The translations under genes and the position numbers were made by a program. Shown one piece after another: positions 12,653-15,044 of a stretch of DNA of 59,698 bases; within the stretch, counting starts at the first letter, position 1; each line of letters starts with the position of its first letter. Under the pieces are notes generated by a model that was not told where the DNA came from, searched no databases, and saw only the letters and a program-made list of their open reading frames with translations. Source of the stretch: Halorubrum californiense DSM 19288 (GTDB taxonomy: Archaea; Halobacteriota; Halobacteria; Halobacteriales; Haloferacaceae); assembly GCF_000336875.1 (NCBI RefSeq), contig NZ_AOJK01000008.1:73995-133692 (forward strand), read 5' to 3'.

Positions 12653-13615
12653 ATGTTCGGCCACGGCGCGCCGGCGGTGTTGAGCGTGATCCCCGACACG
12701 TTCACGTTCGCGTGGATCGTCGCGATCCTCTTCGCGACGGCGTGGGTGCTCGACAGCCGCGGGCTGGCCGCGGGGCGCACGCTCGCGGCCGCGACGTGGG
12801 CGCTGTTCGGGCTGTTCTGGCTGTCGACGGTGCCGTACTTCGCGTTCGAACACCAGAGCTACGTCGAGTCGATCCTCGCGCTCGTCGGCTTCCCCGCCAG
12901 CGTGTACGCGGGGTACCTCCTGTACGACGGGCGGGCGTCGCTTTTCACCCTCACCCGGGCCATCGCGATTATGCTGTTCATTTACCTCCCGTTCGAGACG
13001 ATTCCGGCGTTCACGTTCGCCGGGATCGCCGTCCCGGAGCCACGTCGGATCCTCATCGAGGTCGTCGCGACGCAGACCGGGATGCTCATCGACCTCCTCG
13101 GCTACGCGCCGGAGGCGGTGACGAGCAGCGAGGGGTACGACGCGGCGTACTCGTGGACGCTCGACGACGGCCACACCGTCATCATCCACATCGTGCTGGC
13201 GTGTACGGGGCTCGGGAGCATGGCCATCTTCGGCGGCCTCGTGGCCGCCGTCGAGGCGCCGCTCTCGCGGAAGCTCCGCGCGCTCGCGGTGTCGATCCCG
13301 CTCATCTACGTCCTGAACATCTTCCGAACGGCGTTCATCTCGATCGTCGCCGGCAACCAGTACATGCACTGGTACCCGGACCTCGTGTTGACGATGTTCG
13401 GCGCGACCGACCCGTACCGGGTCTCCTTCCTCATCTCCGACCGCATCATGAGCCAGCTGCTGGCGGTCGTGGCGCTCATCGCGATCACCTTCCTCGCGGT
13501 GCGCCAGCTACCCGAACTCGCGGTGATCTTGGAGGACGTCCTCTACCTCATCACCGGCGAGGAACACGACCTGACCGAGGCGCTCGACCTCCCGCGCGAG
13601 CCGACGAACCGGTAG
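12653..13615 (+). CDS. artA: Archaeosortase A
   Basis: A 320-residue multi-pass membrane protein of the exosortase/archaeosortase family. The catalytic Cys is in LACTGLGSM (Cys184), followed by Arg in NIFRTAF (Arg225) and Arg in ISDRIM (Arg264). The spacings of 41 and 39 residues equal those of the known Cys/Arg/Arg residues in Haloferax ArtA. ArtA recognises C-terminal PGF-type signals, cuts them and attaches surface proteins such as the S-layer glycoprotein to lipid at the outer membrane face. A TATA-like CTTTATT at 12623-12629 suggests a leaderless transcript of its own. Confidence 0.96.
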   Translation: MFGHGAPAVLSVIPDTFTFAWIVAILFATAWVLDSRGLAAGRTLAAATWALFGLFWLSTVPYFAFEHQSYVESILALVGFPASVYAGYLLYDGRASLFTLTRAIAIMLFIYLPFETIPAFTFAGIAVPEPRRILIEVVATQTGMLIDLLGYAPEAVTSSEGYDAAYSWTLDDGHTVIIHIVLACTGLGSMAIFGGLVAAVEAPLSRKLRALAVSIPLIYVLNIFRTAFISIVAGNQYMHWYPDLVLTMFGATDPYRVSFLISDRIMSQLLAVVALIAITFLAVRQLPELAVILEDVLYLITGEEHDLTEALDLPREPTNR

Positions 13616-13670: not shown

Positions 13671-13700
13671 AAATATATAGTTCTATATAGCAAACTATAG
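13671..13700 (+). promoter_or_regulatory. AT-rich block with three TATAG-type units phased at 10 bp
   Basis: Three adjacent 10-mers AAATATATAG, TTCTATATAG and CAAACTATAG all end in TATAG at exactly 10-base intervals in very GC-rich surroundings. The first or second unit could be the TATA box for the leader frame and MgtC-like gene downstream. The helical phasing also suits a protein bound to one DNA face. Confidence 0.5.
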
Positions 13701-13725: not shown

Positions 13726-13797
13726 ATGACTGCGAGGACGCGAGAGGAAACGCCGGGGTCCGGCCGCAGAGCGCGGCTGCGGCGGGGTGATCGCTAG
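13726..13797 (+). CDS. Candidate 23-residue arginine-rich leader peptide
   Basis: The ATG at 13726 opens 23 codons (beginning MTARTREETPGSGRRARL) with eight Arg, several encoded in the last ten codons. Its TAG ends at 13797, and that last base is also the first base of the GTG of the next gene (TAGTG). Within its 3' end lie a 7-bp hairpin (13763-13769 with 13777-13783) and a strong Shine-Dalgarno sequence GGGGTGATC (13784-13792) placed for the downstream GTG. This arrangement suggests translational coupling or an attenuation leader. Expression is unproven, and it could be a chance frame. Confidence 0.4.
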   Translation: MTARTREETPGSGRRARLRRGDR

Positions 13798-15044
13798 TGT
13801 TGAGCGCGGTCGACCCGTTCGTCTACCTGGAGACGAACGTCGCCAAGCTGGTCTTGGCGACCGCGCTCGGCATGTTCCTCGGGCTGGAGCGGGAGTGGTC
13901 GCAGAAGTCGGCCGGGATCCGGACGTTCGCGCTCGTCAGCCTCGCGGCCGCGGTGTTCTCGCTGCTCGGCGAGTCGGGACTGCTCGTCGTCGGCGGCGTG
14001 CTGGTGGTCGCCAGCGCGGTGCTGCTCGCCGTCCGGAGCTTCGTCGAGCCCGAGGTCGACGGGCTCTCGCTGACCACCTCGGCGTCGCTGCTCGTCGCGT
14101 ACGGGGTCGGCGTGCTCGTCGCCGAGGGGCTGTTCATCGAGTCGGTGACGGTGGCGGTGCTCTCGTCGCTCCTGCTCGTGTTGAAGCGAGAGCTCCACGA
14201 GTTCGCGTGGGGGCTCTCCCGCGAGGAGGTGCGCAGCGCGGTGGAGTTCACCATCCTCGCGTTCGTCGTCTTTCCGCTCCTCCCGGCCGAGACGATCGAC
14301 CCGTGGGACGCGGTCCAGCCGCGGCTCGTCTGGTCGCTCGTGGTGGCGGTCAGCGCCATCGGCTTCGTCAACTACGTGCTGGTGAAGCGGTATCAGGGGC
14401 GCGGCTACGCGGTGACGGGCTTCTTCGGCGGGCTCGTCAACTCGACGGCGGTCGTCGCCGAGATGGCGAAGCGCGCGAAGGGGCGCGCGGACCTCGGCGA
14501 GATAGCGGTGGGGTCGATCCTCCTCGCGAACGCGGCGATGGCGTTCCGGAACGCCGCGGTGGTGGCCGTCTTCGTCCCGGAGGCGGCGCTCGTCGTCGGG
14601 GCGCCGCTCGGCGCGATCACGCTCGCGGGGATCGGCGTCGCCGTGTGGCGCAGCGACTGGCGGACGACGATGGAGGCCGAACTCACTTCCCCGTTCAGCC
14701 TCGGCAACGCGCTCACCTTCGGCGCGCTCTTCATACTCGTGCTGCTCGTCTCCGCCGTCGCCGAGCAGACGTTCGGCGCGGGCGGGTTCGTCGCCACCTC
14801 CTTCCTCGCCGGGTTGGTGTCGTCGGGGACCTCGACCACCACGGCGGTGTCGCTGCTCGGGACCGGACAGATCGGGGTCGACACCGCGGTCGCGGGCGTG
14901 GTCGCCGGCACCGCCGCCAGCATCCTTATCAAGACCGCCTTCGCGGCCAGCATCGCGCGGGAACTGGTGCGGCCGGTGTTCCTCTGGAACCTCCTGCTGA
15001 TCGTCGTGGGAGTGGTCGCCGGGCTGCCGCTGTTGCTGCTGTGA
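13797..15044 (+). CDS. MgtC/SapB-like (DUF4010) membrane protein
   Basis: A 415-residue protein of about 11-12 membrane helices. The N-terminal part has the MgtC/SapB signature (LGMFLGLEREWSQKSAGIRTFALVSL) and the remainder is the DUF4010 type (GFFGGLVNSTAVVAEMAKRAK, then SGTSTTTAVSLLGTGQIG). Bacterial MgtC is tied to Mg2+ limitation and ATP homeostasis; the role of this longer archaeal form is not known to me. The GTG start at 13797 is supported by GGGGTGATC, nearly the full complement of the 16S rRNA 3' end, ending four bases upstream. A short leader frame overlaps this start. Confidence 0.9.
   Translation: MLSAVDPFVYLETNVAKLVLATALGMFLGLEREWSQKSAGIRTFALVSLAAAVFSLLGESGLLVVGGVLVVASAVLLAVRSFVEPEVDGLSLTTSASLLVAYGVGVLVAEGLFIESVTVAVLSSLLLVLKRELHEFAWGLSREEVRSAVEFTILAFVVFPLLPAETIDPWDAVQPRLVWSLVVAVSAIGFVNYVLVKRYQGRGYAVTGFFGGLVNSTAVVAEMAKRAKGRADLGEIAVGSILLANAAMAFRNAAVVAVFVPEAALVVGAPLGAITLAGIGVAVWRSDWRTTMEAELTSPFSLGNALTFGALFILVLLVSAVAEQTFGAGGFVATSFLAGLVSSGTSTTTAVSLLGTGQIGVDTAVAGVVAGTAASILIKTAFAASIARELVRPVFLWNLLLIVVGVVAGLPLLLL

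Follow-up and report, generated by a model that had tools for sequence, protein, structure and literature searches.

What is the role of a 23-codon open reading frame that ends, in a haloarchaeon, on the first base of a membrane-protein gene? The start of translation inside an mRNA is unsettled in haloarchaea, where most transcripts are leaderless and Shine–Dalgarno (SD) motifs proved non-functional for de novo initiation at a 5′ UTR in Haloferax volcanii, yet aid reinitiation. We analyzed a stretch of 59,698 nucleotides from Halorubrum californiense DSM 19288 (contig NZ_AOJK01000008.1; hereafter the window), which holds such a mini-ORF. Judging from sequence comparison across the genus, this conserved mini-ORF is most likely a leaderless starter cistron and, on present evidence, not a sensor of Mg2+ or arginine.

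The membrane-protein gene (13797-15044, forward strand) starts with GTG, and its product carries an MgtC domain (PF02308, 1.3e-20) and DUF4010 (PF13194, 1.6e-50). Upstream on the same strand lies artA (12653-13615), which encodes archaeosortase A (TIGR04125, score 332 vs. a cut-off of 75) and is a conserved neighbour in Halorubrum. Between them, the mini-ORF (13726-13797, forward strand) runs from ATG at 13726 to TAG at 13795-13797 and encodes MTARTREETPGSGRRARLRRGDR, with eight Arg residues. The G of this TAG is the first base of the GTG at 13797, giving the overlap TAGTG (13795-13799). Within the frame, a 7-bp hairpin with a loop of 7 (13763-13783; GCCGCAG at 13763-13769, CTGCGGC at 13777-13783) is directly followed by GGGGTGATC (13784-13792), inside which lies the SD-like GGTGATC (13786-13792) for the downstream GTG. 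The first-pass annotation had described the frame, its eight Arg, the overlap, the hairpin and the near-complete SD, and all of them are present in the sequence as claimed.

A TATA box, TATAG (13696-13700, forward strand), precedes the ATG of the mini-ORF by 30 nt. From this box, the transcript is predicted to start probably at, or a few nucleotides from, the ATG at 13726 and not downstream of it, in keeping with the earlier idea of a leader, which depended on a start no further downstream. In 39 orthologous Halorubrum loci, the spacing between TATA box and ATG is 29-31 nt, with 30 in almost every case, and so suits a leaderless transcript; in one further locus (L038), the variant box CATAG stands in place of TATAG. 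An AT-rich near-palindrome of the form TATAG-CAAA-CTATA, TATAGCAAACTATA (13686-13699, forward strand), overlaps the TATA box and is a possible regulator site. It is the sole exact copy in the genome, and a related form, TATAGCAAGCTATAG, is found in close relatives. A regulon sharing the palindrome was considered and rejected, as the genome-wide search returned one other weak match, fewer than the reversed-pattern control.

Orthologues were collected from the genus, where the gene is present in 49 of the 52 genomes searched, and from named public genomes. The sole criterion for choosing a leader ATG was a TATA motif 25-33 nt before it, whatever the reading frame; 39 loci qualified by this rule, and L038 was added by hand. 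The results showed that, in all 39 loci and in L038, the leader ATG has phase 2 with respect to the gene and the ORF ends at the gene start. Both the short frame and its overlap, for which the first-pass annotation had proposed an alignment of orthologues, are thus conserved across the genus, while the length of the mini-ORF ranges from 15 to 57 codons. The position of the stop varies, being TAG at -2 in the window and TGA at +1 or TGA, TAA or TAG at +4 in other species. At three loci (L022, L027 and L028), the mini-ORF ends at an upstream in-frame GTG that is likely the true gene start, the overlap being retained even where the gene start has shifted upstream. In several species, a TTG that follows the GTG by one codon may instead be the coupled start; at L035, TGA lies at +1 of the aligned GTG, and several in-frame GTGs leave the true start uncertain. 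An SD of at least 5 nt before the gene was found in 28 of 40 orthologues, compared with 16% of shuffled sequences.

The distance from the mini-ORF start to the gene took 20 values between 41 and 170 nt in 50 taxa, all of them 2 mod 3. On the gene tree of these taxa, this corresponds to at least 28 length changes, each by a multiple of three, through which the phase stayed constant. The spacer from artA to the TATA box in the same genomes served as a control, and both intervals could be measured in 38 taxa. In these taxa, the mini-ORF went through at least 19 length changes and kept its phase each time, whereas the control spacer underwent at least 26 length changes and at least 15 phase changes. 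At the spacer's frequency of phase-keeping changes (~11/26), 19 such changes in a row have a probability of ~1e-7, a rough figure since triplet repeats favour phase-keeping: triplet-like repeats lie behind part of the length variation (L023, L041) and favour multiples of three without selection. Because the frame and the overlap are conserved, with no phase change through at least 28 length changes, the mini-ORF exceeds chance, and the sequence comparison confirms it as a real feature. The competing view that the region is an untranslated 5′ UTR, with the ORF as a by-product of GC-rich, stop-poor sequence, draws on the fact that an open frame alone is unremarkable at this composition (79% of shuffles contained no stop), but that view does not account for a phase kept where the control spacer's was not, nor for the constant 29-31 nt between TATA box and ATG, and we regard it as highly improbable.

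Several loci lack the TATA box. In five related species (L030, L034, L045, L047 and L048), a GTG-led mini-ORF lies close behind the artA stop, and at L031 and L032 an ATG-led mini-ORF with a strong SD lies behind GGAGGTGA. Phase and overlap are the same there as in the TATA-selected loci, although these starts, having been chosen by the overlap itself, carry less weight than those picked by a TATA motif. In relatives further away (72-75% identity), the mini-ORF is replaced by a full-length HAD-type phosphatase gene, and its TGA overlaps the gene start. The 57-codon mini-ORF of a Halorubrum-like genome (L111:1331-1504) opens with the HAD-phosphatase-like AAIVDLDDT, and the full HAD gene is found at this place in Natrialbaceae relatives (L104, L106-L110 and L113 are cited alongside). 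This mini-ORF may be a remnant of a coupled HAD gene, a resemblance that is not significant alone. The L050/L111 mini-ORF outscored 500 shuffles against an HAD profile, but the E value was 0.13, Pfam gave no match and the BLASTP result was weak, so a decayed-phosphatase origin was left as a hint.

The first-pass annotation had also suggested that ribosomes on the leader would cover or expose the hairpin and the SD, and it proposed tests with varied Mg2+ and arginine. One rival reading is an amino-acid-responsive attenuator, in which pausing on Arg codons would refold the leader and expose or hide the ribosome-binding site. Pooled over 40 mini-ORFs, Arg codons are indeed in excess (323 vs. 228 expected); strong Arg runs occur at L020, L023, L041 and L044, and the GTG-led mini-ORFs of the artA-linked subclade are Arg-rich. 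However, only 4 of the 40 mini-ORFs individually fall below 0.05, the mini-ORFs of L031 and L032 are Asp-rich, that of L035 has few Arg, and Arg is absent in some orthologues. In the window itself, the eight Arg compare with 5.2 expected (P = 0.12), and enrichment as a signal there was rejected as not significant; part of the RRGD end of the peptide is encoded by the SD itself. The significant, conserved run of the sensed codon that marks an amino-acid attenuation leader is lacking. The hairpin is private to the window sequence, orthologues having none at the corresponding position, an Rfam search gave no match, and a conserved RNA switch structure as in enteric mgtC leaders is not seen. We also rejected sequestration of the SD as a conserved trait, as its mean unpaired probability is 0.33 and its pairing with the mini-ORF body is very variable. 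We consider the attenuator very unlikely, and the hairpin-based and arginine-linked parts of the earlier proposal fall away with the unconserved hairpin and the non-significant Arg count.

The peptide might instead matter in its own right, as a basic microprotein acting in trans or together with the membrane protein. An M-x-A-T-T-R-S-like N-terminus and a basic character recur in many species; among close relatives, third codon positions vary most, in weak excess, and replacements are fewest in frame 0, which is a weak sign of constraint on the peptide. A starter cistron does not need such a constraint, which counts, weakly, against a pure form of that model. Conservation of the peptide is weak overall, though: its length and sequence vary freely across the orthologues while phase and overlap do not, and a Pfam search gave no match. 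A functional microprotein is in our estimate unlikely.

With good confidence, we read the 23-codon ORF as a leaderless starter cistron that would feed the MgtC/DUF4010 gene by termination–reinitiation, a reading in which we infer translation and coupling from the conserved anatomy. Transcription from the TATA box would begin at the ATG, and haloarchaeal ribosomes would initiate on this 5′-terminal codon, make a short peptide of little importance and stop at the TAG, whose last base opens the GTG. Reinitiation at the GTG would be aided by the SD, by analogy with the coupling measured in H. volcanii. The job of the starter cistron would be to bring ribosomes to a GTG lying ~70 nt from the 5′ end of the mRNA, an internal position at which haloarchaeal initiation is poor. 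In H. volcanii, 72% of protein-coding transcripts are leaderless (PMC4983044). When the upstream ORF of overlapping gene pairs was shortened in that species, downstream translation was lost in all nine pairs tested, and in the majority of seven pairs tested the SD motif made a difference to reinitiation (PMC6728339), while SD motifs do not serve de novo initiation at its 5′ UTRs (PMC6728339; PMC7531240). Because the H. volcanii SD serves reinitiation and not a de novo start, a GTG with an SD ~70 nt inside the mRNA would be a good site for the former and a poor one for the latter. The first-pass proposal that the leader governs the gene start thus survives in its core, since a conserved frame with an SD is very likely coupled to the gene, and loses its hairpin, arginine and enteric-mgtC components.

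The same layout was found before other genes. The background rate was taken from the window together with 800 kb of stretches sampled from one relative. In this sequence, six ATG mini-ORFs lay 28-31 nt from a TATA-like motif and overlapped a long ORF, compared with one to three at each of nine control distances. A candidate pair from the genome sample (L168) was set aside, as it is not conserved in the genus. An amino-acid permease gene is preceded by a 15-codon mini-ORF of the MIHARRVTTARGGPP type with a GTGA overlap (L176:448-495, reverse strand; L179-L208). Most Halorubrum genomes have a 15-codon mini-ORF with an NTGA overlap, at 44, 65 or 83 nt where the TATA box is present and at 68 nt in a subclade that lacks the box. 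The mini-ORF of a subclade is unrelated in sequence, yet its overlap is unchanged. The mini-ORF of cdc48 (L222:6098-6214, forward strand; L234-L263, L297), of ~36-43 codons, overlaps the cdc48 ATG and is present in 31 of 31 Halorubrum loci examined, at 110-128 nt and in one phase throughout. It contains a conserved GNRLIPxPG...PREE stretch, more constrained than the leader of the MgtC-domain gene, and a mini-ORF of this kind was not found in 24 loci from other genera of the order (one with a masked upstream region). Before the dehydrogenase E2 gene (L232:4298-4366, forward strand, ATGA overlap; L264-L293), a related layout occurs in 21 of 30 loci with a less clear leaderless ATG; the lengths differ by multiples of three, often 21 or 24 nt, and in other species the E2 gene lies directly behind an upstream gene. 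We lean slightly towards the view that the Halorubrum lineage uses a class of leaderless starter cistrons, possibly some dozens in each genome. These short ORFs, set between promoter and gene, would initiate non-leaderless genes by termination–reinitiation, and they would do so even for a core gene like cdc48, whose mini-ORF is missing from the sampled genera outside Halorubrum.

The occurrence of the layout before unrelated genes also bears on the analogy with enteric mgtC leaders that the first-pass annotation had drawn. The product of 13797-15044 reaches a score of 32.5 with the NCBIfam MgtC equivalog, whose cut-off is 255; with its domain order of MgtC and DUF4010, it is not an MgtC equivalog, as the downstream gene of the enteric system is. 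Since the same layout precedes unrelated genes and this gene is not an MgtC equivalog, the starter layout is not an Mg2+-specific device, and the idea of Mg2+ or arginine sensing by the leader is unsupported.

A leaderless mini-cistron would be a simple solution to the problem of internal starts, and the idea can be put directly to the test on the conserved natural cases at several genes. It also advises caution, as short ORFs at the 5′ ends of archaeal mRNAs may be ribosome feeders, not microproteins or sensors. In the literature searched, we found no archaeal description of a leaderless starter cistron; several known systems share parts of it. The Salmonella mgtCBRU mRNA likewise holds short ORFs (mgtM, mgtP and mgtQ) in an operon with an MgtC-domain gene, but these sense ATP or charged tRNA-Pro or switch stem-loops (PMC8092293), while the Halorubrum hairpin is unconserved and its gene no MgtC equivalog. 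The sections considered here of the report by Babski et al. (2016, PMC4983044) likewise place short ORFs upstream of haloarchaeal genes in H. volcanii; these encode low-pI peptides in UTRs of 150-250 nt, and conservation or stop/start coupling is not described in those sections. The overlapping gene pairs of H. volcanii (Huber et al. 2019, PMC6728339) share the overlapping stop and start and the SD before the downstream start, but their upstream partner is an ordinary protein gene, in contrast to the Halorubrum cistron of 15-57 codons with an unconserved peptide. A synthetic leaderless bicistronic design in Corynebacterium glutamicum, with a fore-cistron whose internal SD feeds the gene (PMC10367133), is similar in plan, but it is engineered and bacterial.

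The small ORFs of mycobacteria that are leaderless and coupled to the next gene (Shell et al. 2015, PMC4633059), which a review proposes to deliver ribosomes (PMC12548453), offer a close precedent and a cross-domain parallel. They have a leaderless start, a short ORF and a stop overlapping the next start, and in them the leaderless start and the linkage are conserved though the peptide is not; in Halorubrum, the linkage and a predicted leaderless start are likewise conserved, and the peptide is not. The stop/start overlap is shared too, as TAGTG in the window instead of RTGA, while orthologues show NTGA or have their stop at +4. The mycobacterial ORFs are bacterial and were shown by RNA-seq and ribosome profiling, whereas the Halorubrum case is archaeal and deduced from sequence; the Halorubrum mini-ORFs further differ in that the SD is conserved and the overlaps measure 1, 4 or 7 nt.
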